DNA of 64,000 nt, from NCBI RefSeq assembly GCF_000418325.1, contig NC_021658.1, positions 1,860,001 to 1,924,000 on the forward strand. Direction: 5' to 3'. This DNA is from Sorangium cellulosum So0157-2. Its GTDB lineage: Bacteria; Myxococcota_A; Polyangia; Polyangiales; Polyangiaceae. The position numbers were made by a program, and so were the translations under genes. The notes under the pieces are model-generated. The model saw nothing but the letters and a program-made list of their open reading frames with translations. It was not told where the DNA came from and ran no database searches. This document shows, in pieces, positions 28,060-42,617 of this stretch (its first letter is position 1; each line of letters opens with the position of its first letter).

Positions 28060-29788
28060 AGGACCGATCAGGTTGATTTTGTGATAATCTCGGGCGTTTC
28101 GATGGAAGGCTCGACCGTCTCGCCCGGGTCATGATCTCGTCCGCGTCCGGAGGTTCACGGATGGAACGATGGTCGCCGCCGGTGGAGCTGTCGCGGCAGG
28201 AGCAGGCGCTGATGAAGCGGCTGACACGCGTGAGAGCACTGTTCGGCTTTCTCAGGCTGCACCGGCACGAGCTGTTCGACGAGACGTTCCAGGAACAGCT
28301 GGAGGGCATGTACCGGACGACGGGGGCAGGTGAGCCGCCGCATCCGCCGGCGCTGATGTGCATGGTCACGCTGCTCCAAGGCTACGTCGGCGCATCGGAT
28401 GCCGAGGCGGTGGAACTGGCCGTCGTTGACCTGCGCTGGCAGATGGTGCTCGGCTGCCTGGGTGCGGACACACCTCCGTTCTCGCAGGGCGCGCTGCAGG
28501 CGTTCCGAGAGCGGATGGTCGCGCACGAGATGGACCGGGTGCTGCTGGAGCGGACCGTGGCGCTGGTTCGGTCCGGCGCGATGACGGAGGGCGAAAGGCG
28601 TGCGGTGTCGAAAGCGCTGCGGGTGGCCATCGATAGCCGCCCTTTAGCGGGGGCCGGGCGGGTTGAGGACACGATCAACCTGCTCGGCCATGCTGCACGC
28701 AGCATCGTCCGCGTCGTGTCAAAGATCACGGAGCGTCCGCCCGAGGAGATCTGCCGCAAGGCGGGCATCCCGCTGCTTCTGGCGCCCAGCATCAAGGCCG
28801 GGCTCGACCTCGACTGGAGCGACCCGAAGCAGAAGGCGGCGGCGATTCAGATCCTGGAGCGGCAGGTCTCGTCGTTGCAGCAGTGGGTCGACCGCCATCT
28901 TGACGACGTCGTCGAGCAGCCGCTTCGCACCTATCTGGATGCGGTCACCCAGGTTCGAGACCAGGACCTGGAGACAGCCGAGGACGGGACGGTTCGCATC
29001 CGGCAGGGCGTTGCACCTGACCGCCGTGTCTCCATCGAAGACGCCGAGATGCGCCACGGCCGCAAGAGCCGCTCGAAGCGGTTCGACGGCTACAAGGAGC
29101 ACATCGCACGCGATCTTGACCTTCCCGTCATTGTCGCCTGCGCGGTCACGCCTGCAAATCGGCCCGAAGAAGAGGGTGCCGCACCGATCGCCGAGGACGT
29201 CCAGCGTCAGCGGCTGCGCCTCGTCGAGCTCCACATTGATCGCGCCTACGTAAACAGTCCCGTCGTTGACGACGTGATCCGCGCGGGTGGCCAGGTGTTC
29301 TCGAAGCCTTGGGGCCAGCGGGCTCGAAGCCCCGATTTGTTCAGCAAGCGCGATTTCAAGATCGACCTGCGCGCCAAGACGATCACGTGTCCAGCGGGAC
29401 AGGTCGAGGTGTTCGAGCCGGGCGACACGGTCGAGTTCGATCCCGAGGAGTGCGGCGCGTGCCCGCTTCGAGCCAAGTGCACGCAAGCTGCCTCGGGGCG
29501 AGGGCGGACTGTGTCCATCGCCGAGGACGAAGCTCTGCAGGGCAAGTTCCGGAAGTTGCAGCAGACCGGGCCAGGACGCGCCGTGCTCCGGCAGCGGACA
29601 GCTGTGGAGCATGCGCTTGCCCACATCGCGGCACGCAAAGGACACAGCGCACGCTACATCGGCGCCAGGAGAAACCTGTTCGACCTCCGGCGCGCCGCAG
29701 CGATCCAGAATCTTGAGGCGGCCCAGCGGCTGATCCAGGAGGCTGCGTAACTGATTGAAATTAGATAATTTTCAAACCGTTCGGCGTT
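28060..29788 (+). mobile_element. IS1182-family insertion sequence, complete
   Basis: 1729 bp containing one transposase gene. It is flanked by CTAG on both sides (28056-28059 and 29789-29792), a probable palindromic 4-bp target duplication. Imperfect terminal inverted repeats start AGGACCGATCAGGTTGA at the left and AACGCCGAACGGTTTGA at the right (11 of 17 matching). Removing the element and one CTAG restores the palindrome GCCCTAGGGC. The right-hand CTAG also supplies the TAG stop of the DUF3500 gene on the other strand, so insertion was exactly at that stop codon. Single copy in the window. Confidence 0.85.
28131..29750 (+). CDS. IS1182-family transposase
   Basis: 539 residues from 28131; the ATG at 28161 (MERWSPPVELSRQEQ) may be the real start since homologues begin there. 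N-terminal DUF772 region (HELFDETFQEQLEGMYRTTG...PPALMCMVTLLQGYVG), then the DDE catalytic domain with RRVSIEDAEMRHGRKSRSKRFDGYKEH, VELHIDRAYVNSP and the C-terminal RTAVEHALAHIAARKG (Glu). A Cys cluster (CGACPLRAKC) lies between, as usual for this family. It is full length with no visible frameshift, so it may be active. Confidence 0.93.
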   Translation: MISSASGGSRMERWSPPVELSRQEQALMKRLTRVRALFGFLRLHRHELFDETFQEQLEGMYRTTGAGEPPHPPALMCMVTLLQGYVGASDAEAVELAVVDLRWQMVLGCLGADTPPFSQGALQAFRERMVAHEMDRVLLERTVALVRSGAMTEGERRAVSKALRVAIDSRPLAGAGRVEDTINLLGHAARSIVRVVSKITERPPEEICRKAGIPLLLAPSIKAGLDLDWSDPKQKAAAIQILERQVSSLQQWVDRHLDDVVEQPLRTYLDAVTQVRDQDLETAEDGTVRIRQGVAPDRRVSIEDAEMRHGRKSRSKRFDGYKEHIARDLDLPVIVACAVTPANRPEEEGAAPIAEDVQRQRLRLVELHIDRAYVNSPVVDDVIRAGGQVFSKPWGQRARSPDLFSKRDFKIDLRAKTITCPAGQVEVFEPGDTVEFDPEECGACPLRAKCTQAASGRGRTVSIAEDEALQGKFRKLQQTGPGRAVLRQRTAVEHALAHIAARKGHSARYIGARRNLFDLRRAAAIQNLEAAQRLIQEAA

Positions 29789-31114
29789 CTAGGGCCGACC
29801 GCGGGCGGGGACGCCGTGGCCCTCCTGGAGGTGCCGCGCGAGCAGGCTGTCGCCGAAGTCGTCCTGCAGGTCGCGGAACACGGTGTGGATGTGATCGCCG
29901 CCGCGGTTGTCGTACTCGATGAGGTGGGTCGGGCCGTGGATCCGGTAATAATGCGACTGCTTCGGCGAGGCGCTGCCCGCCCAGGCGAAGTGCAGGCGCT
30001 CCACGCCGGCGCGCGCGATGCGGTCGAGGTGCCCGTCGGCGACGTCGGCCGGGAAGTTGCGGGCGTAGGCCTCCAGCAGGCGCAGCAGCGCGGCGCGCTG
30101 GGCCGGGGTCATCTCGGCCGCGGGCAGGCCCTCGACGCTCGCCAGCGCGGCCCGGCGGGAGGCCTCGGTCACGAGGTCGGGCGGCGCCGTGGCGGCGATC
30201 ACGGCGCGCTGGCGCTGCGCGGGGGTGAGGGAGGCCAGGAAGGCGCGGCCGAGATCCTCCTCGGCCGCGAGCACGCGCAGGCCCTTGCGGGGGCCCGAGG
30301 GCACCTCGGCCGGGTTGGCGCCCAGGAACGCCGGGGTGGTGGCCACGCCGCCTCCCGCGGAGGTGAAGTTGAGCGAGACGTGGTGTCCCTCGAAGCGGAA
30401 GCCCCACGGGGCCTCGGGCCCGGGCTGGCCGAAGAGGGCGAGGTGGTAGCGGCCCGGGTCGCGGAACGCCGGGTTGCCCTCGATGCCCCCGAGGATGCCC
30501 TCGAGCAGCAGGACGCCCTCCACTTTGCGGTACCCCTCCGGGCTGAGGCCGGCCCGGAGCAGCGCGTGCGCCGCGCTGCGCTCGCCGCCGTCCATGTCGC
30601 CGAGCGCGAGGCCGGCGCGGCGGCGCGGGACGTAATGCCAGTCCTCGCGCTCGCGGCTCTGGAACGCGAGCAGCGCCCGGCCGCGCGCCTCGCCGTCGAG
30701 GCCGTCCACGAAGGCGCGCGCGGAGGCCGCGATCGCCTCGGCCGTGGCGCGCCCCGCGGCGCCGCCCGGCGGAGGCGCGGCGCCGGGAGGCCCCGCGGGC
30801 GGCGGCGAGGCGGGCGGCGCGGGCAGGGGGCCCTGCTCGGCGGTCTGCAGGGCTGGAGCGGACGGGCTGCCCGGCGCGGCCGCGGGCTCGCCGGGCGGGG
30901 CTTCCTGGGGTCGCATGCTGTTGCAGGAGGTCGTCATCGCCAGCACGAGGGTAGCCGCGATCCGCGAGCTCGGCCCGGACAGGCGGGGGCAGCGCGACCG
31001 GAGCGCGCGCGGAGCCGCGCCGGCCCGCGCGGTCGTGCCGTCGCCCGGGCTGGCGAGGCGATGTCCCGCTGCGTCCGCGCCCGCGGCGCGCCCGGCGATG
31101 CTCCGCATGCGCAT
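29789..31114 (-). CDS. DUF3500-family lipoprotein
   Basis: 441 residues. After an Arg-rich head comes a hydrophobic stretch ending LAMTTSC (lipobox-like), a long Pro/Ala/Gly linker (about 65-120) and the DUF3500 domain with GFRFEGHHVSLNFTSAGG, NPAEVPSGPRKGLRVLAAEE and the family hallmark HYYRIHGPTHLIEYDNRGGDHIHTVFRDLQDDFG. The start is uncertain; the first 45 residues may not be translated. Function of the family is unknown; it is exported. Its promoter region is now occupied by the integrase gene 16 bp upstream, and an IS1182 element sits at its stop. Confidence 0.85.
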   Translation of the reverse strand: MRMRSIAGRAAGADAAGHRLASPGDGTTARAGAAPRALRSRCPRLSGPSSRIAATLVLAMTTSCNSMRPQEAPPGEPAAAPGSPSAPALQTAEQGPLPAPPASPPPAGPPGAAPPPGGAAGRATAEAIAASARAFVDGLDGEARGRALLAFQSREREDWHYVPRRRAGLALGDMDGGERSAAHALLRAGLSPEGYRKVEGVLLLEGILGGIEGNPAFRDPGRYHLALFGQPGPEAPWGFRFEGHHVSLNFTSAGGGVATTPAFLGANPAEVPSGPRKGLRVLAAEEDLGRAFLASLTPAQRQRAVIAATAPPDLVTEASRRAALASVEGLPAAEMTPAQRAALLRLLEAYARNFPADVADGHLDRIARAGVERLHFAWAGSASPKQSHYYRIHGPTHLIEYDNRGGDHIHTVFRDLQDDFGDSLLARHLQEGHGVPARGRP

Positions 31115-31130
31115 AGCCTAGCTCGGCGTG

Positions 31131-31155
31131 TCAGGAATCCCGCCAGGATTCCTGA
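31131..31155. terminator. Perfect palindrome at the integrase stop codon
   Basis: TCAGGAATCC-CGCCA-GGATTCCTGA, 10-bp arms and a 5-bp loop, covers the last codons and stop of the integrase gene. No T run follows. It may be a factor-independent-like terminator or part of a recombination site. Confidence 0.5.
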
Positions 31156-32882
31156 GGCGACGCGGCAGGGTCGGACGAAACTTCAATGATTTCAGACGCT
31201 TTTAGCCGATCCGCAGCCGGGCGAGTCGCCGGCTTGGCCCAACGCGGGCCCAACGCGGCGCCGGTAGCCGTCGCGTTGCCCCCTGTGGGCTGGCCGGCGT
31301 CGTCATCCACCGCGCTGGGCGCTCGGTCGGGCAGCGCGCGGACAAGGGACGCGTCGTAGCTCGGCGACGGCGAGCGCTCCTCCAGTCCTGCGGACGTGGA
31401 AGCACTTCCACCTACGGGTCCGCTCTTGCCGTTCAGCTCGGGGATCGCCTCGTCCAAAGGTGCGAAGTCCCCCAAGCCGAGCTCAGCGACCTTGCGCGCT
31501 GCGCGCTTGTAGTTGTGAATCTGACGGCTCGACTTGTGTCCGGTCCGATCGGAGATCCACGTCTCCGTGCGGCCGTTCGCGAGCTTGATCGTGATGAAGG
31601 TCGCGCGGGTGTCGTGCAATCGTATGTTCAGCCTCGACTGCGTGGTCTCGAACAGCTCAGGCCGATCGATACCAGCGCGGCGCAGGTGATTCCGAAAGTT
31701 CTTCGCGCCACTGCGGCCTGGCAGGGGGCCGTTCGGCCCGATGAAGACACGCTCCTTCGGCGGACATATCGCGAAATAGGCCCGAAGCGCGCGCACAACA
31801 TCTGGTGAGAGTGCCCAGGCGCGTGGGTCATCCGTCTTGTTCTCGTCGAGCACCACGGCGCCGCGATCGAGATCGAGATCGGACGGCTCCAGCCTTCCCG
31901 CCTCGTCTGCCCGCATTCCCTCGCGGATCAGGAAGCCATAGTAGATCCGATAGGACAGTGGAATGTCCACCGCCGCCATGAGACGCCTATCCTCGTCGGG
32001 ATAGAGGGAGCCCTTGGCCTTGTTGTCGTCTGCTTTGGGGATCCAGCCACGCGGCAGCGGATTGTTCGCGATGATCCGCGCCGGATAGGTCGCGAGCGCG
32101 AGTATCCTGTGGATGAACTTTGCGATGCCTTGACGCGACGAAGCCTCAAGGTGCGCCGGCAACATGGAGATCGCCCGATCCGCGTGGTCGAGTGTCAAAC
32201 GAGGGAGAGGAATGGGACCGAGCACTTCCAGAACATGATTCAGCTTGTGCCGGTATGGTTCGGGACGACGGAGCGCTTTCACATGAAGCGGGTACTGCTC
32301 GGCGAGCCTTCCAGAGACAACCAACTCGGCGAACTCCGCGAAGGTGATTTCCCCGGACGGGCGAGCACGCGCTTCGCCCTTGCAGAGTTGCTCGATGGCA
32401 AGCCGGACGTCATGGAGTGCGCGTCCCTCGCGCGCGGCCGCCTGCTCCAGCAACGGCAGGCCGAGCACGATCTGGCCGGCTGCGAGCAGGCGGCCGGCGA
32501 GGTCGGCCAGCACCTCCAGGCGCGCGTTGGCTTCCTGCTCGGTCCGGCACGTCGGCAAGCTGAACGTCGGTCGACCGGCCTCGCCGAGGCTAAGGCGTGC
32601 GGTCCACGTCTTCCCGCGCAGCCGGACGGACCCGGAGCCGTTGGCCCGCTTGTCTCCTGCCGGCCTGCTGGGAGCACGGGCTCCCAGCTTCGGGTGCTCC
32701 GTCGTGCTCGCAGCGCCCGGCGAGGTGGCGACGGGTGCAACCACCGGCGCCGCCGGAGCGGGGCGTCCGCCGGAGCGGCTCGAACGCGAACGCCGGTCGG
32801 TCGATGCGGGGGCAGGAAGGGATGAGGTGGGGAACGAAGCCGAGCGCTTGGCGCGCGCCCGTCGCTGGGGTACGTCGGTCAT
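31131..32882 (-). CDS. Tyrosine recombinase (phage-type integrase)
   Basis: 583 residues from the ATG at 32882 (MTDVPQRRARAKRSASF). A basic Pro/Ser-rich head (about 1-85) leads to an AP2-like arm-binding stretch (ANGSGSVRLRGKTWTARLSLG), a core-binding domain and the catalytic domain: GMRADEAGRLEPSDL (Arg), VLDENKTDDP (Lys), IRLHDTRATFIT (His-x-x-Arg), SDRTGHKSSRQIHNYKRAAR (His and Tyr nucleophile). All catalytic residues are present. The C-terminal 120 residues are Ser/Asp/Pro-rich and include the dispersed WAR-V-GP-type motif region. The two small paralogous genes upstream on the same strand probably act with it. Confidence 0.9.
   Translation of the reverse strand: MTDVPQRRARAKRSASFPTSSLPAPASTDRRSRSSRSGGRPAPAAPVVAPVATSPGAASTTEHPKLGARAPSRPAGDKRANGSGSVRLRGKTWTARLSLGEAGRPTFSLPTCRTEQEANARLEVLADLAGRLLAAGQIVLGLPLLEQAAAREGRALHDVRLAIEQLCKGEARARPSGEITFAEFAELVVSGRLAEQYPLHVKALRRPEPYRHKLNHVLEVLGPIPLPRLTLDHADRAISMLPAHLEASSRQGIAKFIHRILALATYPARIIANNPLPRGWIPKADDNKAKGSLYPDEDRRLMAAVDIPLSYRIYYGFLIREGMRADEAGRLEPSDLDLDRGAVVLDENKTDDPRAWALSPDVVRALRAYFAICPPKERVFIGPNGPLPGRSGAKNFRNHLRRAGIDRPELFETTQSRLNIRLHDTRATFITIKLANGRTETWISDRTGHKSSRQIHNYKRAARKVAELGLGDFAPLDEAIPELNGKSGPVGGSASTSAGLEERSPSPSYDASLVRALPDRAPSAVDDDAGQPTGGNATATGAALGPRWAKPATRPAADRLKASEIIEVSSDPAASPQESWRDS
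31234..31252 (-). repeat. Dispersed GGCCCAACGCGGGCCCA motif, copy 3 in the integrase 3' end
   Basis: TTGGCCCAACGCGGGCCCA lies inside the C-terminal coding part of the integrase and is followed by a second CAACGCGG. It matches copies 1 and 2 over 17 bp. Confidence 0.55.
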
Positions 32883-32953
32883 GGATCGGTCTCCGGTGAT
32901 TCGGGGGTCGATCAAGGGCCCGTCCGGCGTTCGCAGCGCCGGGCGGGCCCGCT

Positions 32954-33481
32954 CTACTTCGGCGGCAGCCTAGCACGGCTTGTCGCTGCGGGAGGAGCGC
33001 TCGCCCGGCCGGTGCGGGGACACGGGACCGGTTCGAGGCCGGCGGAGGCCAGCACGGCGGCAACCCGCGTGCGCTCATCGGCCTCTGTCGTGCGACGCGA
33101 GGCCGGCTCACTGGCCAGCGATCGCAGGTAGGCAACGAATGCCTCGCGCTGGACCAAGCGCAACTTGCCGAGTTTTGTGATCAGCAGGGGAAAGCCTGGC
33201 GCGCGGATCGTGTCGAGGAAGACGCGCGCCGGGATGCCGGTGACCGCCTCGACGTTCTTCTGCGAGAGCATCTCCGGCTGCGGCGCCGTGATCGTGAGCC
33301 CGTCCAGCGGGATCGCGAGCGTCGCGGTTGCCGTCGCGGTCGCTGGTCGGTCGATCACCTTCGGGCTGGACCACCCACCTGCGGGCGTTTCCAGGCTTTC
33401 TCCGTCGATGGCGCGCACGCCGTTGTCAGCAAGACGAAGAGCAAGCGGTGCCGACACACGCGCGAGAGCCGCTCGTGTCAT
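32954..33481 (-). CDS. Small DNA-binding-like protein, paralogue A (excisionase-like candidate)
   Basis: 175 residues, strong ribosome site GGAGG 9 bp before the ATG. The middle part (about 68-115: MLSQKNVEAVTGIPARVFLD, then PGFPLLITKLGKLRLVQREAFVAYL) looks like an excisionase/MerR-like HTH: a recognition helix followed by a wing reading KLGKLRLV. The first 60 residues and the Arg/Ala-rich tail are low complexity. Paralogue B downstream in sequence order (33904-34419) shares nearly all of this middle part. Position next to an integrase suggests a recombination directionality factor or element regulator; this is inference. Confidence 0.6.
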   Translation of the reverse strand: MTRAALARVSAPLALRLADNGVRAIDGESLETPAGGWSSPKVIDRPATATATATLAIPLDGLTITAPQPEMLSQKNVEAVTGIPARVFLDTIRAPGFPLLITKLGKLRLVQREAFVAYLRSLASEPASRRTTEADERTRVAAVLASAGLEPVPCPRTGRASAPPAATSRARLPPK

Positions 33482-33548
33482 GCCATACCTCCATCCGTGT
33501 TGGGTTCGTGCGCAACCGTGACCGACGCGGCTGCAAGGTGCCCGAAAA

Positions 33549-33695
33549 GGTATCTCTGAGCCGAAGGTATCTCTTCACGAGATACCTTCGGTACGCGCCT
33601 GGGGAAAATCACGTCGTGTCGCGGGGTTAGGTGTTCTGGGAGGCCCCCAAGAGGGGCCGAAAACGGGGGGAGCGAAGGGGTCGATTTTGTATCTC
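33549..33695 (-). promoter_or_regulatory. Operator-like array A with half-site GGTATCTC
   Basis: Upstream of paralogue A. Half-sites are GGTATCTC at 33549-33556 and 33566-33573, its inverse GAGATACC at 33579-33586 (palindrome with a 5-bp spacer), and GTATCTC at 33689-33695. The same four positions in array B carry GGTAATTC. The first two half-sites are 17 bp apart, on the same helix face within about half a turn. Confidence 0.7.
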
Positions 33696-33903
33696 TGCGC
33701 GACCCGTCGGCACCGCCCGGCGAAGCGCCGCCGAGACGTGCCGGGACCGGCTGCGATCGCGGGCGTGGCCGGCCGTGGCGGTGGTGATCATCGGCGGCAT
33801 CGCATCTTCACCGTCGCACATCGGCACACGCTGCCAACGGAACTGCGTCGCGTGGGGGTCGATCAAGGGCTCGTCCGGCGAGCCACCGCCGAGCAAGCCC
33901 GTT

Positions 33904-34419
33904 CTACTTCGACGGAAGCCGACCACGGCTCGCACCTCCGGGAGGAGCGCAGGGGCGGCGTGAACATGCACGCGGAACCGCCTCGAGGCCGGCAGCCGCC
34001 AGCACGGCAGCAACCCGCGTGCGCTCATCCCCCTCTGCGTCACGGCGCGAAGCAGGGGCAGTGGCCAGCGCCTGGAGGTGGGAGACGAACGCCTCCCGCT
34101 GAACCAGGCGCAGCTTGCCGAGCTTCGTGACCGGCAAGGGGAAGCCCGGCGCGCGTATCGTGTCGAGGAAGACGCGCGCCGGGATGCCGGTGACCGCCTC
34201 GACGTTCTTCTGCGAAAGCATCTCCGGCTGCGGCGCCGTGATCGTGAGCCCGTCCAGCGGGATCGCGAGCGTCGCAGTGGCGGTGCGATTGATCGTGCTG
34301 GAGAGCTGCGATCCGCCGACGGGCCGCTCCAGGACCATTCGCTCGATCGCTCGCATGCCGCTGTCCGCCTGAAAAAGAGCAAGCGGTGCCGATACACGCG
34401 CGAGAGCCGCTTGTGCCAT
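33904..34419 (-). CDS. Small DNA-binding-like protein, paralogue B (excisionase-like candidate)
   Basis: 171 residues. Residues about 54-115 are almost identical to paralogue A (LAIPLDGLTITAPQPEMLSQ, then KNVEAVTGIPARVFLDTIRA), and the start MAQAALARVSAPLAL is close to MTRAALARVSAPLAL. Differences concentrate in residues 16-50 and in the C-terminal 50 residues. The same ribosome site GGAGG is present. If the HTH region were the only DNA-reading part, both proteins should bind alike, yet their upstream half-sites differ, so the variable N-terminal part or another protein may set specificity. Confidence 0.6.
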   Translation of the reverse strand: MAQAALARVSAPLALFQADSGMRAIERMVLERPVGGSQLSSTINRTATATLAIPLDGLTITAPQPEMLSQKNVEAVTGIPARVFLDTIRAPGFPLPVTKLGKLRLVQREAFVSHLQALATAPASRRDAEGDERTRVAAVLAAAGLEAVPRACSRRPCAPPGGASRGRLPSK

Positions 34420-34486
34420 GCCATACCTCCATCCGTATTGGGTTCGCGAGCAACCGTGACCGATACCGCCGGAAGGAGCCCGAAAA

Positions 34487-34635
34487 GGTAATTCTGCGCC
34501 TGAGGTAATTCGCCTCGAATTACCCGGAGACGCGCCTAAGAAAAATGCTATGTCGCATCGCGGATTTCGGTGTTCTGGACAGCGCCGCTGAGGGGCCGGA
34601 AAAGGGGGAGAGCGAAGGGGTCAATTTGGTAATTC
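34487..34635 (-). promoter_or_regulatory. Operator-like array B with half-site GGTAATTC
   Basis: Half-sites GGTAATTC at 34487-34494, 34504-34511 and 34628-34635, and inverse GAATTACC at 34517-34524 (5-bp spacer to the second). Geometry is the same as in array A: 17-bp direct spacing, the same palindrome, and a distant fourth site about 105 bp further upstream. All four sites changed together relative to array A. Confidence 0.7.
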
Positions 34636-35891: not shown

Positions 35892-38800
35892 ATGCCGCTC
35901 GTTCCGAGATGTGCGCTCCGGGCGATCATCCCGCTCTTGATGTTTCTCGCTTGCGTGCTCGCGCAGGGGGGATGCCAGTGTATCTTCGGCGACCCGCCCC
36001 TGGAGCCGCCTCCTGGCCTCATCGCCTGCCGGACCCAGCGCGCACACAGCCCTGCCGCGGATCGCCCCGTGCCGGAGGTCGAGACCGTCGCGGCCGGTAC
36101 GATCCCGGGGACGTTCTACATTTCGAGCACCGGGGAGGCCGTATACACCATGGAACTGGCCTCCCCGCCGTCGCGCGCGGGCGTGGGTCCTCGGATCGAG
36201 CTCGTCTATCGCAGCGACAGCGACAGCGGCGACGGGGTGCTCGGCGCCGGCTTCTCCATCGCCGGGCTGTCCGCGATCGCGCGGTGTCCGAAGAGCCTCG
36301 CGCAAGACGGGGAGATCCGCGGCGTGAGGTACGACGGGGACGACGCGCTCTGCCTCGACGGCCAGCGCCTCGTCCCCGTGGGACAGGCGCCGGGGACCAT
36401 CGAGTACCGCACGTTCCCGGATACCCTCGTCAAGGTGGTCGGGCACTACCCTCATAAAGACGGTGCACCTGCCGAGGCGCTCTTTTTCGAGGCGTTTCTG
36501 CCTTCCGGCCGCGTCGTCGAGTACGGGCGCACCGAGGGCAGCAAGCCGCTCGCGCGGGGCGGCGTCCCGCGCGCCTGGCTCGCGAACAAGGCCCGCGACG
36601 GCCGCGGCAACGCCATGACGTACGCATATTGCGTCGCCGAGGCGGAGGACGGCCATGCCGCCGAGTACGCGGTGGACGAGATCCGCTACACGGCTTTTGA
36701 GGGAACGCCGTCGCTCGAGCCTTCGCGGGCGGTACGCTTCGTGTACGCGACGAAGGATCCGGCTGCCATTCGCACCGGGTACTCGGGCGGCATGGCGCTC
36801 CAGCACTCGCTTCGCCTCGAAGAGATCCAGATGCTCGGTCCTGGCGACGCGCTGGTCCGGAGCTACGGGTTCCGCTACGAGCTCAGCCCGACGACGAGCC
36901 GCACGCTCCTGACCGAGGTCGAGGAGTGCGCAAGCGATGGTGTGTGCAAGCCTCCAACACGATTTCAGTACAGCCGCGGAGAGCCCGGGTTCAAGCGGCT
37001 CACGACGGACATCGACAAACCGGTCTCCGAGAGGGCGAGCCCGATGGTGTTCGACGTCGACGGCAATGGGCGCGACGACCTCGTGATTCCGGACATGGTC
37101 GCGGCGCTCAGCACACCGAGCAATCCGATCACGGCGTGGCAGGTGGCGCGGAACCTCGGGCCACCTGCCTCGCCGTCCTTTCTCGCACCGGCCGAACTCG
37201 CCTTCCTAGAGGATTGGCTGTTCGTCGCCGATCCGGTTGGAACCTCCGATCCGGCGATGCTTCAGCCGGAGCTCGGGACGGTCCTGGACTACGACGACGA
37301 TGGGCGAACGGACGTGCTGGTCCATGACGTCTACGGTGCCGAGGTCACGTGGCATGTGCTCCTGTCTCGGCCGGACTGGACATTCGCGCTCCACGACACG
37401 GGCATCCGCCGGCCGTTCCCGCTCGGGGGCACGCCCCCGCCGCCAGGCCTGAGCAGCCCCGGCGCCTCGATGCACCTCGCCGACCTGGACGGCGACGGCG
37501 TGCCGGATCTGATCCAGTGCGAGGACCACGACCGCCTGGGACAGTCGCCGATCCCGGCCTCTTCCGTGTGGACCGTCCACCTGTGGCGGCCGGCAAGCGG
37601 CGCGACGCCTGCGGGATTCGACCCCACGGGCGAATCGATCGAGCTGCTCATCGGCTATCCCTGCGGTACGGAGCTCCACACGCTCGACGTCGATGCCGAC
37701 AGCAAGATCGATCTCATCGTGCCGTCCCTGCGACGGTTCGGTGACGGGACGGTCCTCCTCGGAGATAGCTACGACGCGATCATGCGCCGCGGCGAGGGGC
37801 GCTGGGAGGTGATCGACACCGAGCTCCCTGTCGTGTGGCCCGGGGGCCGCGTCGTCTTTCTCGACGCGAACGGCGACGGCTTGCCCGATGCCGTCGAATC
37901 TGGCCCGGGCGACCACCAGCTCTATACCTACTTCAACACGGGCCCGACCTTCGTGGCCTCGCCGTTCCGGACCGTCGATGCGTTCAGCTTCGGCGATCTG
38001 TTCGGTCTTCCCGATCAGGACGTGTTCTTCCCGCTCGCCGTACCGCTCGACTTTAACGGCGATGGGCGGCAGGATCTGGTCATGCCGGTTCCTCCAGGCA
38101 TGCTGCTGGGCGGCTCCGATGCGCTCCCGTCGTGGGCCGTCCTGCTCGCGACGGGCGATCGCGCAGGGCCGCCCTTCCGGCTCGTCGACCCGGGGCTGCC
38201 GTTCGAGGCCAGCCTCGGCGATGCGGCGGTCACCCTCGCCGATCCGCGCGGGCCGCGCACCGGCGACGTCGATGGGGATGGCGCGCGGGACGTGATCCTG
38301 TCGCTCGGCGGCGTGTTCAGCGTCTTCCAGAACCTCTCGGCCGATCAGGATCTGCTGATCGCGGTCTCCGACGGGATGAACGCGCACGACCCGACCGAGC
38401 CGGACTTCGTGCCCAACGTGAGCATCTCGTACGGCCACATGACCGATGCCTCGGTCACGAACGAAGGCGTTGCGGAGGATCCGGCGCGGCGGAGCGCGCT
38501 CTACCTCGCGCGTTCCGGCACGCCGGACGACTGCGGCTATCCGCGCCGCTGCGTGGTGGGGCCTCGGCGGGTGGTCAGCGCGTATGCCCTCAATAACGGC
38601 GCCGATCGACCGCGGCGTTTCGAGGTCGGCTACCGTGACGGGCGCTACCACCGGCTGGGCCGCGGATTTCTCGGGTTCGGCGAGCGGATCGTGACCGACC
38701 TGGACACGGGCGCTGTGACGATCGACGCCTACGACCACGTCACCTTCGACGACGATCTCCAGGTCTTTCCCTTCGCGGGGCGCGTCCAGCGGACGTGGCG

Positions 38801-41800
38801 CGGGGCTCCGGGACTGCCGAGCCAGCCCAGGCCGGAGCAGATAGAGCTCTCGTTCGCCGACGTAAGGCGGACGCTCGTACCGACGAACGACGGCGCGACG
38901 TACTTCACGCTGCCGACCGAGCGCCGGATGAGGCAAGCGCAGGGCATCTATCCGCCACCGAACGGATCCACGCCTGCCATCGAGGCATACATGCGGGAGG
39001 TCGAGCGCGGCGGCGGCGGCGCGACGTTGCTGCGCGATTCGGTGTCGAAGGTGACGGACTTCGATACGTTCGGCAACGTGCGCGCCGAGGAGGTCTCGAC
39101 CCGCGGCGTCGACCTGACGTTCAACGTCACGCGGACGTTCAAGAACGACGCCGAGCGCTGGGTCCTCGGCCAGCTCGAGACGCAAAAGGAGTGCAGCGCG
39201 GCGGCGGGGATGTCGCAGTGCCGGACCCTCACGCGAACGACCACGATCTACGGCGAGGTGGAGACCGAGTCCACCGAGAGCGACGACGGCCTTCCCGACA
39301 CGAAGCTGAAGCTCACCTACACGCGCGACGACTTCGGGAACATCACCGGCGTCACGGCAGAGGACGCCTTCGGGCACCATCGGACATTCAGCACGCCCTA
39401 CGACGCGGAGGGCATGTTCCCCGAGAAGTACGTGAACGCGGCCGGGCACACCACGCTCGTGGAGTTCGACGGGGCGCTCGGCGTGCTGCTCAAGCGGGTC
39501 GATCCGAATCAGCTCGTGACGACGTGGGCGTACGACGGCTTCGGGCGCGTCGGTGTCGAAACGCGCCCAGACGGCACCACGACGGTCACGGTCTCGCGTA
39601 CCAAGGATGGCGGCCCGGGGCGGGATGCGTGGCGGGTGAGACAGCGGAGCACCACCACCGGCGGGGCCGACGACACGGTCGAATTCGACACCCTTGGCCG
39701 CGCGATCCGGTGGCTGTGGTACGGGCCCGACCCGTCGCAAGGGTCGCGCGATGCGCCGCGTTTGATGCAGGAAATCGTGTATGACGCGCTCGGTGAGCAC
39801 GTCGCGCGGCGCTCGGTGCCGGTCAGCGAGGATACGCCCGAGCGCGAGATGCTCTACGACCGCTATGAACACGATGCTGTAGGCCGCGAGGTGCGGCATA
39901 CAACGCCGTGGAACGCGGTCACGACCACCGAATACGACGGCCTGCTCGTGCGCGCCACCGACCCGCTCGATCACGTGACGGTGACCGAGCAGGATCCGCT
40001 GGGGCGCATCAGAACCATCACCGACGCGGCCGGCGGGGAGACCCGCTACGCCTATGGCCCATTCGGCCTGCTGCACACGGTCACCGATCCGGGCGACGCC
40101 GTGACGCGCACGACGCGCGACGCATTCGGCCGCGTCCGGCAGCTCGACGACCCCGATCGGGGCACGACCGTCTCGATCCACGACGGCTTCGGCGAGCTGA
40201 TGTCAGAGGCCGATGCGCTCGGGCGCGAGATCTCGTGGGACTATGACGCGCTCGGTCGACCCCGCACGCGCATGGACCAGCACGGCGCCGAGCGTCTGAC
40301 GACCACGTGGACCTGGGACACCGCGGCGCATGGCATCGGCAAGCTCCACACGCTCACGAGCCCCGATGGCGAGAAGACGTACGGCTACACCCGCTTCAGC
40401 CAGCTCGAGACGACCTCGCTCCGCATCGACGGAGAGCGCGCGTCGCTGGAGGCCAGGCTCGGCTACGACGATCTCGGTCGCGTCGAGACGGTCACCTATC
40501 CGGCGCCGGCCGGCGCAGCGCCGTTTGTCGTGGCACAGGAGCACGACGCGCATGGCCATGTGCTCGCCGTGCGCGACAGCAGCACGCGCTTCGCCTACTG
40601 GCGTTTGACGGACGTGGACAACGCGGGGCGCTTCCGGGAGGAGGTGTTTGGCAACGGCGCCGTCACGGAGCGGAGCTACTTCGCCGACAAGCAGCGCCTC
40701 AGGCACATGGTGACGCAGAGCGGCGCGGGCGAGGTGCAAGACCTGGACTATGGGTTCGACGATCTGCTGAATCTCACGCGCCGCACCGATGCGCTTCAGC
40801 CCCGGAACACGACGGAGCGCTTCAGGTACGACGCGCTCCACCGGCTGACCTGCGCGTACTTCAGCGAAGTTGAGAGAGCGTCGGCGCCTTGCGCGCTCCG
40901 CTACGACTACCACCCAAACGGCAACCTCATCTTCAAGTCCGACGTCGGCACGCTCTCCTACGACGATCCATTGCACCCGCATGCCGTTACCGATGCGGGC
41001 ACAGGCAGCAGCTTTGGTTATGACGCTGTCGGTAACCAGAACGCGCGCCCCGGCGGCACGACCGTGCGCTATACGCCGTTCGACCTGCCGGCGCGCATCA
41101 CGCAAGGCACGAGCACCATGACGTTCGCCTACGACGGCGACCAGCAGCGGATCCGCAAGACCACGCCGGAGAAGGAGACGCTCTACCTCGGCGACCTGTA
41201 CGAGCGCGCTACCGGCGCGGCGTCGGGCACCGTAGAGCATCGATACCACGTCCACTCGCCGGAGCGGGTCGTGGCGATCGTGACCCGGGGCGGCGCGGAT
41301 GACGGCACGCGGTACGTTCATGTCGACCACCTCGGCTCCGTCGACGCGCTCACCGACGAGGACGGCGACGTGATCGAACGGCGGAGCTACGACCCATTCG
41401 GGCAGCGGAGAAACCCCGTGTGGGGAGAGCCCGCACCGGCGTCGTTTGCCAGCAAGACGACGCAAGGGTTCACGGGGCACGAGAGCGACGACGAACTCGG
41501 GCTCGTGAACCTGAAGGGCAGGATGTACGATTCCAAGATCGGGCGGTTCTTGACCACGGACCCGATCGTGTCCTTTCCGTTCTTCGGACAGAGCTGGAAT
41601 CCATACAGCTACGTGCTCAACAGCCCGCTTAACTTCGTCGATCCGACCGGATTTCAGCCAGCAGACCAGAAGCTCTTCATCGATCCGGAGTACGCCAAGG
41701 ACCCCGAGGTGCAGCGACTCCAGGAATTGAGTTGCGCCGGCTTCGGCGATTTCGAATGCTCCAAGTCCAAGCCGCCTTCCAACGAGGTAGAAGGTTCGCG

Positions 41801-42617
41801 CGAGGCCGCGGAGGTCGGCGCGGCGGCGCCGCCGGTCGACGTCAGCACGACCGGGAGCGCGTCCGGGTATGTGCCGCAGCCGGTGACCACGGCGCCCATC
41901 GACTGGTCGCAGAACCCCTATGTCCAGGTTGAGGGCGGGTTCGTCGCCGGGTTGTTGCTCGGTCTGGTTCCGTTCGCCGGCGTGGGTCATGAGCTGCTGG
42001 ACGCCGCGAGCGTGCTGGCCCATGGGACGCCGGAAGCCAGGATGGGGCTGGCCATCGGACAGATCGTGGGTGGGCTCACCGTCACGATCGGGGGCTTGAC
42101 GGGGGAGGTCTTCGGGGGCATCACGAGCGCCACCGGAATCGGCGCGGCGATCGGTGTGCCTGCGATCGCGGTGTCGACCGGGCTCGTCGTCGGTGGGGTC
42201 GGTAACATCGCGGCGGGGCTCCAGGGACTGTCGCAGGCACTGATGTCGAGCGGGTCAGGCAGTGCGGGCTCGCAGGGCGCGGCGCCTGCCGCAGGGGGGG
42301 AACCCGAGCATCACATAATGACGAACAAGAATCGCGTGTCGACGACCCAAGGAGGACCGTGGACGCCGCGATTTGAGGACATGGCCAAGCGAGCTGGTAT
42401 GACGCTGGACGATGCGGCTAATCGAGTTCGAATCCCCGGTCACCGAGGGCCGCATCCGGAGGCGTATCACCAGGAGGTGTTCAACCGACTACGCAGGGCT
42501 ACACGTGGATTGCAGGGCGACGCCTATTCGAACGCGTTCCGAGCGGAGCTCGACGCGATTCGGATCGAGGCAGCTACAACCGGATCCGGACTCAACCGGC
42601 TCCTCACGGGGCAGTGA
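35892..42617 (+). CDS. SpvB/FG-GAP/Rhs giant toxin with AHH nuclease tail
   Basis: 2241 residues, start preceded by GAGGGAGGCTGC. An N-terminal export signal (AIIPLLMFLACVLAQGGC) is followed by an SpvB-like domain (about 70-350: GTFYISSTGEAVYTMELASP, GVLGAGFSIAGLSAIARC) and seven FG-GAP/VCBS-type motifs between about 390 and 810 (VFDVDGNGRDDLVIPD, TLDVDADSKIDLIVP, TGDVDGDGARDVILS). Next come a TcdB-middle-like part (about 830-960), YD repeats (about 1190-1830) and the Rhs core ending DPTGFQP at about 1920. The tail has a hydrophobic Gly-rich segment (about 2015-2110) and an AHH-type HNH nuclease: HHIMTNKN (2140-) and PGHRGPHPEAYH (about 2182-2193). Expected action: delivery of a nuclease into competitor cells. 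An immunity gene overlaps its stop. Confidence 0.9.
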   Translation: MPLVPRCALRAIIPLLMFLACVLAQGGCQCIFGDPPLEPPPGLIACRTQRAHSPAADRPVPEVETVAAGTIPGTFYISSTGEAVYTMELASPPSRAGVGPRIELVYRSDSDSGDGVLGAGFSIAGLSAIARCPKSLAQDGEIRGVRYDGDDALCLDGQRLVPVGQAPGTIEYRTFPDTLVKVVGHYPHKDGAPAEALFFEAFLPSGRVVEYGRTEGSKPLARGGVPRAWLANKARDGRGNAMTYAYCVAEAEDGHAAEYAVDEIRYTAFEGTPSLEPSRAVRFVYATKDPAAIRTGYSGGMALQHSLRLEEIQMLGPGDALVRSYGFRYELSPTTSRTLLTEVEECASDGVCKPPTRFQYSRGEPGFKRLTTDIDKPVSERASPMVFDVDGNGRDDLVIPDMVAALSTPSNPITAWQVARNLGPPASPSFLAPAELAFLEDWLFVADPVGTSDPAMLQPELGTVLDYDDDGRTDVLVHDVYGAEVTWHVLLSRPDWTFALHDTGIRRPFPLGGTPPPPGLSSPGASMHLADLDGDGVPDLIQCEDHDRLGQSPIPASSVWTVHLWRPASGATPAGFDPTGESIELLIGYPCGTELHTLDVDADSKIDLIVPSLRRFGDGTVLLGDSYDAIMRRGEGRWEVIDTELPVVWPGGRVVFLDANGDGLPDAVESGPGDHQLYTYFNTGPTFVASPFRTVDAFSFGDLFGLPDQDVFFPLAVPLDFNGDGRQDLVMPVPPGMLLGGSDALPSWAVLLATGDRAGPPFRLVDPGLPFEASLGDAAVTLADPRGPRTGDVDGDGARDVILSLGGVFSVFQNLSADQDLLIAVSDGMNAHDPTEPDFVPNVSISYGHMTDASVTNEGVAEDPARRSALYLARSGTPDDCGYPRRCVVGPRRVVSAYALNNGADRPRRFEVGYRDGRYHRLGRGFLGFGERIVTDLDTGAVTIDAYDHVTFDDDLQVFPFAGRVQRTWRGAPGLPSQPRPEQIELSFADVRRTLVPTNDGATYFTLPTERRMRQAQGIYPPPNGSTPAIEAYMREVERGGGGATLLRDSVSKVTDFDTFGNVRAEEVSTRGVDLTFNVTRTFKNDAERWVLGQLETQKECSAAAGMSQCRTLTRTTTIYGEVETESTESDDGLPDTKLKLTYTRDDFGNITGVTAEDAFGHHRTFSTPYDAEGMFPEKYVNAAGHTTLVEFDGALGVLLKRVDPNQLVTTWAYDGFGRVGVETRPDGTTTVTVSRTKDGGPGRDAWRVRQRSTTTGGADDTVEFDTLGRAIRWLWYGPDPSQGSRDAPRLMQEIVYDALGEHVARRSVPVSEDTPEREMLYDRYEHDAVGREVRHTTPWNAVTTTEYDGLLVRATDPLDHVTVTEQDPLGRIRTITDAAGGETRYAYGPFGLLHTVTDPGDAVTRTTRDAFGRVRQLDDPDRGTTVSIHDGFGELMSEADALGREISWDYDALGRPRTRMDQHGAERLTTTWTWDTAAHGIGKLHTLTSPDGEKTYGYTRFSQLETTSLRIDGERASLEARLGYDDLGRVETVTYPAPAGAAPFVVAQEHDAHGHVLAVRDSSTRFAYWRLTDVDNAGRFREEVFGNGAVTERSYFADKQRLRHMVTQSGAGEVQDLDYGFDDLLNLTRRTDALQPRNTTERFRYDALHRLTCAYFSEVERASAPCALRYDYHPNGNLIFKSDVGTLSYDDPLHPHAVTDAGTGSSFGYDAVGNQNARPGGTTVRYTPFDLPARITQGTSTMTFAYDGDQQRIRKTTPEKETLYLGDLYERATGAASGTVEHRYHVHSPERVVAIVTRGGADDGTRYVHVDHLGSVDALTDEDGDVIERRSYDPFGQRRNPVWGEPAPASFASKTTQGFTGHESDDELGLVNLKGRMYDSKIGRFLTTDPIVSFPFFGQSWNPYSYVLNSPLNFVDPTGFQPADQKLFIDPEYAKDPEVQRLQELSCAGFGDFECSKSKPPSNEVEGSREAAEVGAAAPPVDVSTTGSASGYVPQPVTTAPIDWSQNPYVQVEGGFVAGLLLGLVPFAGVGHELLDAASVLAHGTPEARMGLAIGQIVGGLTVTIGGLTGEVFGGITSATGIGAAIGVPAIAVSTGLVVGGVGNIAAGLQGLSQALMSSGSGSAGSQGAAPAAGGEPEHHIMTNKNRVSTTQGGPWTPRFEDMAKRAGMTLDDAANRVRIPGHRGPHPEAYHQEVFNRLRRATRGLQGDAYSNAFRAELDAIRIEAATTGSGLNRLLTGQ

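Follow-up and report, generated by a model that had tools for sequence, protein, structure and literature searches.

The attI1 site of class 1 integrons is described, in the passages of PMC8946536 that deal with it, as an inverted pair (L and R) accompanied by the direct repeats DR1 and DR2 and located near the integrase gene; the same passages propose a co-evolution of attI sites with their integrases, on the ground that recombination between non-cognate pairs is poor (PMC8946536). For the irs of Tn4430, the corresponding part of PMC7157771 gives four subsites, an inverted IR1/IR2 core and the direct repeats DR1/DR2, upstream of the TnpI gene (PMC7157771). The arrays from the genus Sorangium that are analysed here consist, like attI1 of IntI1, of an inverted pair and two extra sites of the same word, a likeness of plan only, and they share with irs the four subsites made up of an inverted core pair and two direct repeats. 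Judged by analogy, the plan of the array is thus already known from attI1 and from the Tn4430 irs. Unlike attI1, the Sorangium array has one accessory site on each side of the pair, one of them about 100 bp away, and an excisionase-like gene lies between array and integrase gene, whereas the substrates of integrons are cassettes with attC partners. The Sorangium integrase (Int), unlike IntI1, scored 17.6 bits against an integron integrase cut-off of 265 (TIGR02249) and 18 against 435 (PRK15417), so that the likeness to attI1 would be one of working and not of membership. Tn4430, by contrast, belongs to the Tn3 family of transposons and resolves cointegrates. Five ORFs were scanned here in addition to int and xis; they included no Tn3-type transposase but one DDE transposase of another kind. 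Tn4430 is not known to carry an excisionase-like gene.

Integrases of the lambda type (lambda, Tn916) resemble the one studied here in being three-part proteins adjoined by a winged-helix Xis-like protein, which in Sorangium is a candidate on a weak fold match. In lambda-type systems the arm-type and core-type sites differ in sequence; in contrast, all four Sorangium sites share one word, and the variable letters of this word follow the core-binding and catalytic parts of Int, not its arm-binding-like part. In cluster A mycobacteriophages the repressor and its sites co-diverge. The stoperators of these phages are many copies of a short asymmetric site, whose specificity groups define immunity according to the relevant parts of two reports (PMC6550527, PMC9283540). 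Sorangium arrays likewise repeat one short asymmetric site, but the cluster A repressors are transcription repressors with genome-wide sites, whereas in Sorangium there are four local sites beside an integrase. A limited search of the literature on Sorangium integrase/excisionase and on Sorangium cellulosum tyrosine recombinase yielded, in the portions of the sources covered, no description of these units.

Organization of units A and B

The window (the whole 64-kb stretch of DNA that was analysed) belongs to a genome of 14.78 Mb from the genus Sorangium and contains two units on the minus strand. Unit A carries a tyrosine recombinase gene (int) and a gene for a 175-aa protein. Unit B carries a gene for a 171-aa homologue of this protein, without int. 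The genes of the homologous proteins are termed xis-like or xis here. The features are as follows.

31122..33849, minus strand: extent of unit A, by homology (L053a matches 31122-33849; the DUF3500 flank is kept up to 31122)
31131..32882, minus strand: int of unit A, tyrosine recombinase of 583 aa (Pfam Phage_integrase, candidate catalytic residues, predicted three-part structure)
32954..33481, minus strand: xis-like gene of unit A, 175 aa, with a predicted winged helix at about residues 70-125
33854..33903, minus strand: end of the homology of unit B, matching the int start region of unit A; no int gene beyond
33904..34419, minus strand: xis-like gene of unit B, 171 aa, by homology to unit A

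An alternative TTG start at 32915 is possible for int and would give a longer protein. Int of unit A matched Phage_integrase (PF00589) with 53.1 bits against a cut-off of 27.1, and the candidate catalytic residues R320/R324, H423, R426, H449 and Y458 were invariant in all 34 aligned proteins, R320 and R324 both being candidates for the catalytic arginine. The predicted structure (mean pLDDT 72.7, both ends disordered) is three-part and resembles XerA, lambda Int (1z1b, E 5.9e-7), Tn1549 Int and an integron integrase. By profile match, candidate catalytic residues and predicted structure, Int looks like an intact tyrosine recombinase. Near the 3' end of int (31236-31255, minus strand) the sequence GTTGGGCCCGCGTTGGGCCA, which holds GTTGGGCC twice, is strikingly conserved at the DNA level across the aligned int genes.

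The xis-like proteins of units A and B are 73% identical and gave no excisionase or other sequence family match beyond chance; HTH_17 was matched by one of 47 homologues (E 0.16). By predicted fold the protein has a weak match to excisionases and MerR-like factors, the nearest folds being BldC and Xis proteins, and to this extent it fits the directionality regulator of the original prediction. The xis-like gene adjoins a tyrosine recombinase gene in unit A as well as in the other nine units of the 10-unit set used below (in L031 with an insertion).

On the int side of unit A lies a DUF3500 gene (29789-31114, minus strand, 299 bits), which is present in four of six Sorangium genomes; conservation on the upstream side of this gene ends at 31122, the start of unit A. 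A clean empty insertion site for unit A was not found at L058, where the DUF3500 flank is kept up to 31122, because the L058 sequence past the equivalent of 31122 lies elsewhere in this genome. The only repeat found at both ends of unit A was a single 10-bp direct match, regarded as chance. A search of this genome for a separate attachment site resembling the core of A with up to three mismatches returned only L027 (two mismatches), itself an array relic, so that neither this search nor that of the DUF3500 flank gave a second or empty site for the unit. No sigma-70 promoter or terminator was found in the region, which carries low weight because the genome is of high G+C content.

The half-site arrays

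The half-site word of arrays A and B is GGTAnnTC, present in four copies each in a fixed geometry, with nn being TC at all four sites of A and AT at all four sites of B. The sites, read directly from the sequence, are these.

33549..33556, plus strand: array A site 1, GGTATCTC
33566..33573, plus strand: array A site 2, GGTATCTC
33579..33586, minus strand: array A site 3, GGTATCTC, inverted to site 2, spacer TTCAC
33688..33695, plus strand: array A site 4, TGTATCTC
34487..34494, plus strand: array B site 1, GGTAATTC
34504..34511, plus strand: array B site 2, GGTAATTC
34517..34524, minus strand: array B site 3, GGTAATTC, inverted to site 2, spacer GCCTC
34628..34635, plus strand: array B site 4, GGTAATTC

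Sites 1 and 2 are spaced 17 bp start to start, the gap of the inverted pair is 5 bp, and the gap to the fourth site is 101 bp in A and 103 bp in B. Direct reading thus bore out the initial claim of four half-sites in the same geometry with a TC-to-AT change at all four places. Within the window the three-site pattern with up to three mismatches occurred only at arrays A and B (mean in shuffled sequences 0.01, n=100). In every unit having an xis gene, the array was found immediately upstream of it. The presumed crossover cores, comprising sites 2 and 3, are 33566-33586 in A and 34504-34524 in B.

Relatives of the units

The 175-aa protein of unit A had six matches in the same genome and the array DNA had ten (E up to 1; the weakest 0.14), one of the latter being the array's own reverse. 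The three-site pattern with at most one mismatch gave 17 matches in four of six Sorangium genomes, whereas the reversed control gave none. Other genera, represented by 57 genomes in a family sample of 60, had none either. No plasmid matched the A protein at E 1e-5. Viral contigs supplied one distant homologue, at L073, among whose ORFs no integrase was recognised by eye. A count of repeats upstream of distant homologues had no power, as array A itself was not outstanding in it.

Units A and B are homologous (79% over 821 bp), but a recent local duplication is not supported. The nearest fetched locus to A is L053a, from another species (87% over 2.7 kb), and the nearest to B is L028 (83% over 1 kb). 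Among the 120 protein matches listed, the best relative had 92% identity for A and 96% for B, in two different strains. Because each has closer relatives in other strains, A and B are, as judged by sequence similarity, separate lineages side by side and not sister copies. A second tandem pair was found at L053, where one unit has TC and its neighbour GT; both tandem pairs seen, that of the window and that of L053, have unlike sites. In strain So ce269 the locus tags 44880 and 44885 correspond to an A-like and a B-like protein, which are taken as neighbours solely on the strength of the tag numbers.

Concerted change of the two variable letters

A comparison was made of 21 arrays: A, B, six others in this genome and 13 from other Sorangium genomes. 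Array L032, whose site 4 was read by eye as GGCAACTC, was omitted from the array alignment and the tree, which therefore used 20 of the 21. Only five dinucleotides occurred in the 84 half-sites (AT 36, TC 23, AC 14, GT 9, AG 2), and the outer six letters of the half-site were conserved, with a mean majority of 0.956. In the 15 arrays other than those of a second type, array_b (see below), the dinucleotide columns had a mean majority of 0.575 versus 0.812 for the columns between sites. Random column sets were as variable as the dinucleotides in two of 20000 draws and random pairs of columns in 16 of 20000. The earlier statement that the surrounding bases drift freely is therefore not quite right, the dinucleotides being more variable than the bases between the sites.

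Seven arrays (A, B, L012a, L014, L027, L053a and L053b) were uniform in their dinucleotides, against 0.5 expected. Pairs of sites within an array were alike in 68 of 126 cases, with 34.8 expected, a value reached by none of 20000 permutations, and again no permutation matched the observed excess when related arrays were collapsed to 13 (53 of 78 pairs alike, 22.2 expected) or to 10 (35 of 60, 17.1 expected). A tree of the 20 arrays was built from the non-site columns, which are few, and a single parsimony reconstruction was used. In it, pairs of sites changing on the same branch, to whatever letters, were in moderate excess (19 versus 11.5 expected; 67 of 5000), and pairs changing on the same branch to the same letters numbered 17 versus 2.7 expected (none of 5000). 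On five or more branches of this reconstruction, several sites switched together to GT or TC. The clearest case is the partial change in L013 and L030, which have a common upstream flank and look like the same locus in two strains: sites 1 and 2 are both GT in the former and both AC in the latter, and sites 3 and 4 are the same.

The concerted change of letters is thus more general than the array pair A/B alone. Random, uncorrelated changes among homologues had been named as the outcome that would speak against it, and what was found lies between the two: uniformity is no rule, since 14 of the 21 arrays are mixed, yet the likeness of sites within an array is far above chance. Taken together, the permutation, variability and tree tests make selection by a DNA-reading protein, as originally suggested, the best reading of the concerted change. 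As to the working form of the array, a folded strand (attC-like or RNA) was rejected because in 11 of the 21 arrays the two inverted sites carry unlike dinucleotides; a search of Rfam gave two matches only, with E 0.075 and 0.076, neither of which attained the gathering score.

Candidate readers of the letters

The HTH regions of the A and B proteins are nearly the same despite the different letters of their arrays, and the original prediction had placed specificity either in the diverged N-terminal parts of these proteins or in another factor. Correlations were calculated for the 10 units having both int and xis; L014 and L051, with Int only 44-48% identical, were left out together with the units without int, and L031 was entered with an int piece of 549 aa. 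The array difference was not significantly related to the divergence of Xis (r 0.14, p 0.17), its N-terminus (r 0.21, p 0.11) or its HTH (r -0.06). The covariation of half-site and N-terminal region that was to be looked for in homologues was accordingly not seen, and neither the N-terminus nor the HTH of Xis is supported as the reader. In L013 and L030 the first 50 columns of Xis are 98% identical, yet the two sites differ (GT versus AC).

The divergence of Int, in contrast, was correlated with the array difference (r 0.58, p 0.0007), and the value was 0.58 given Xis and 0.46 (p 0.0025) given the DNA around the sites. This is notable since the array adjoins xis and not int. By parts of Int, the correlation was 0.60 for the core-binding part, 0.62 for the catalytic part and 0.56 for the C-terminal tail; it was weak for the N-terminal extension (0.34) and -0.07 for the arm-binding-like part. 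The DNA around the sites also correlated with the array difference (0.47, p 0.004). Since the tail, the N-terminal extension and the flanks of the arrays correlate as well, the relation could be due to shared ancestry. Much of it was carried by related pairs, and with six units, one per sister group, the value for Int was 0.36, reached by 88 of 720 permutations and so not significant, and that for Xis was -0.25. In single comparisons, A differed from L012a, L054a and L055a at all four sites, with Xis 85-89% and Int 69-70% identical, and L013 and L030 differed at two sites with Int 88% identical. On these comparisons, and with moderate confidence, the integrase is the most likely reader of the letters, and the other factor for which the original prediction left room would more likely be this integrase.

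The int gene is missing from unit B and reduced to an N-terminal piece in L053b; both arrays nevertheless keep 24 of 24 fixed letters. This would require a reader acting in trans or a recent loss of int. An integrase unit of the AT type (L012) is present in the same genome as B; an integrase of the GT type for L053b was not found among the loci fetched from its genome.

Proposed function of the arrays and alternatives

The reading that we favour, though we would put it at slightly less than an even chance, is that the array is the unit's own site-specific recombination site, with its variable letters read by the unit's tyrosine recombinase. Int would bind all four half-sites of its array and cross over within the 5 bp that separate the inverted sites 2 and 3, leaving sites 1 and 4 as accessory recombinase sites; the winged-helix protein would set the direction of the reaction and perhaps expression. 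The unlike half-sites, together with the unlike spacers (TTCAC in A, GCCTC in B), would stop neighbouring units from recombining. Two directly repeated sites of the same kind would cause loss of the unit that they enclose, and therefore surviving tandem pairs would be those with incompatible sites. The recombination site is favoured by the fixed geometry, the conserved outer letters, the hypervariable pair of letters changing together, the differences that follow Int, the intact-looking integrase, the unlike sites of both tandem pairs and the plan shared with attI1 and the Tn4430 irs. It is weakened by the two units that keep perfect arrays without a whole integrase, by the mixed arrays and by the L013/L030 pair, whose two sites differ despite similar integrases. 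The core half-sites of the inverted pair are 13 bp apart centre to centre, which is close together for a tyrosine recombinase and also counts against it, as does the failure of the searches described above to find a second or empty site. A wider proposal is held more tentatively still, as possible but doubtful: that Sorangium has several orthogonal integrase systems of one family, in which the same two letters have been rewritten in all four words, repeatedly, and which sit as neighbours without recombining. The family would then be a series of natural switches in the specificity of a tyrosine recombinase.

The array could instead be the operator of the winged-helix protein, which would repress xis-int and act as directionality factor, the letters being read by its variable part. 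The position of the array directly upstream of xis suits an operator, as does the retention of xis and perfect arrays in B and L053b without a whole int; proteins of the nearest folds, BldC and Xis, bind repeated sites. An operator is nevertheless unlikely in view of the nearly identical HTH cores in units with different letters, the array differences that track neither Xis nor its N-terminus or HTH, the two switched sites of L013/L030 behind almost identical N-termini, and the occurrence of array_b at five places without an intact xis behind it. It is less probable again that a protein encoded elsewhere reads the sites, or that short-tract copying between neighbouring sites makes them alike. 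The arrays L016 and L052, which are almost perfect without int or xis in cis, would be explained in this way, as would concerted changes that reach only some of the sites of an array, for example sites 1 and 2 of L013/L030. Copying would, however, have to act in tracts of about 8 bp, since L013 and L030 show no accompanying change in the bases between the sites, and neither version leaves room for the correlation with Int. The smallest chance is given to the view that the likeness within arrays reflects mostly the shared ancestry of a few clades at degenerate positions, without meaning for specificity. The TC-uniform arrays A, L053a, L014 and L027 fall into two clades on the array tree, mixed arrays are in the majority, and the sharing of branches regardless of letters is only moderately above chance; but the excess survives the collapse of clades to 13 and to 10 arrays, the same-letter tree test holds too, and several sites were replaced at once by GT or TC on at least five branches.

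The main interest of the recombination-site reading is that the family would be a natural data set on recombinase specificity. How a recombinase changes its DNA word when every site must change too is a question of practical weight, and the family offers many natural pairs, some within one genome, in which only two letters of each half-site are altered. Should the reading be true, the co-evolution of integrase and site and the rules of orthogonality would become directly testable, and the persistence of tandem integrase units without mutual deletion would be explained.

Composite loci and arrays in another genus

In three loci an inverted array of the second type, array_b, lies about 1.6 kb from the unit's own array.

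L012:6379-8022: composite locus, own array and inverted array_b
L054:4471-6109: composite locus, own array and inverted array_b
L055:5946-7578: composite locus, own array and inverted array_b

A conserved ORF of 150 to 170 aa lies between the two arrays of the composite loci, and array_b is also found alone at L016 and L052. At its five places array_b has at most one of 24 letters changed, versus two in each of the neighbouring own arrays (including L012a and L054a). Array_b may serve as a partner site for a reader acting in trans.

Elsewhere in the family, four of six genomes of one further genus contain homologues of the winged-helix gene, at 10 matched loci, eight of which had an Int match beside the homologue. 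Upstream of the xis homologue, L077, L096 and L101 carry three or four tandem 17-bp repeats of the TATACGTATGGTCGGGC type, quite different from GGTAnnTC and varying among relatives in both copy number and sequence; L097 and L098 have a diverged version, and none was seen by eye in L094, L095, L100, L082 and L099. The length of 17 bp is also the start spacing of sites 1 and 2 in the Sorangium arrays. This hints at a greater age for repeat arrays in front of xis-int than for the word GGTAnnTC itself.

Neighbouring genes

Beside unit B, the window contains a polymorphic-toxin-like gene (35892-42617, plus strand) for an RHS/SpvB-type protein of 2241 aa with a C-terminal AHH nuclease domain. The DDE transposase gene lies at 28131-29750 on the plus strand (its ORF is also given as 28131-29747). 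Copies 99.8% identical to it adjoin the L014 unit and lie near array L016, and near-copies are found beside xis fragments of So ce26. Relative to L029, L031 has an insert of about 3.1 kb near the start of int (L031:5641-8733).
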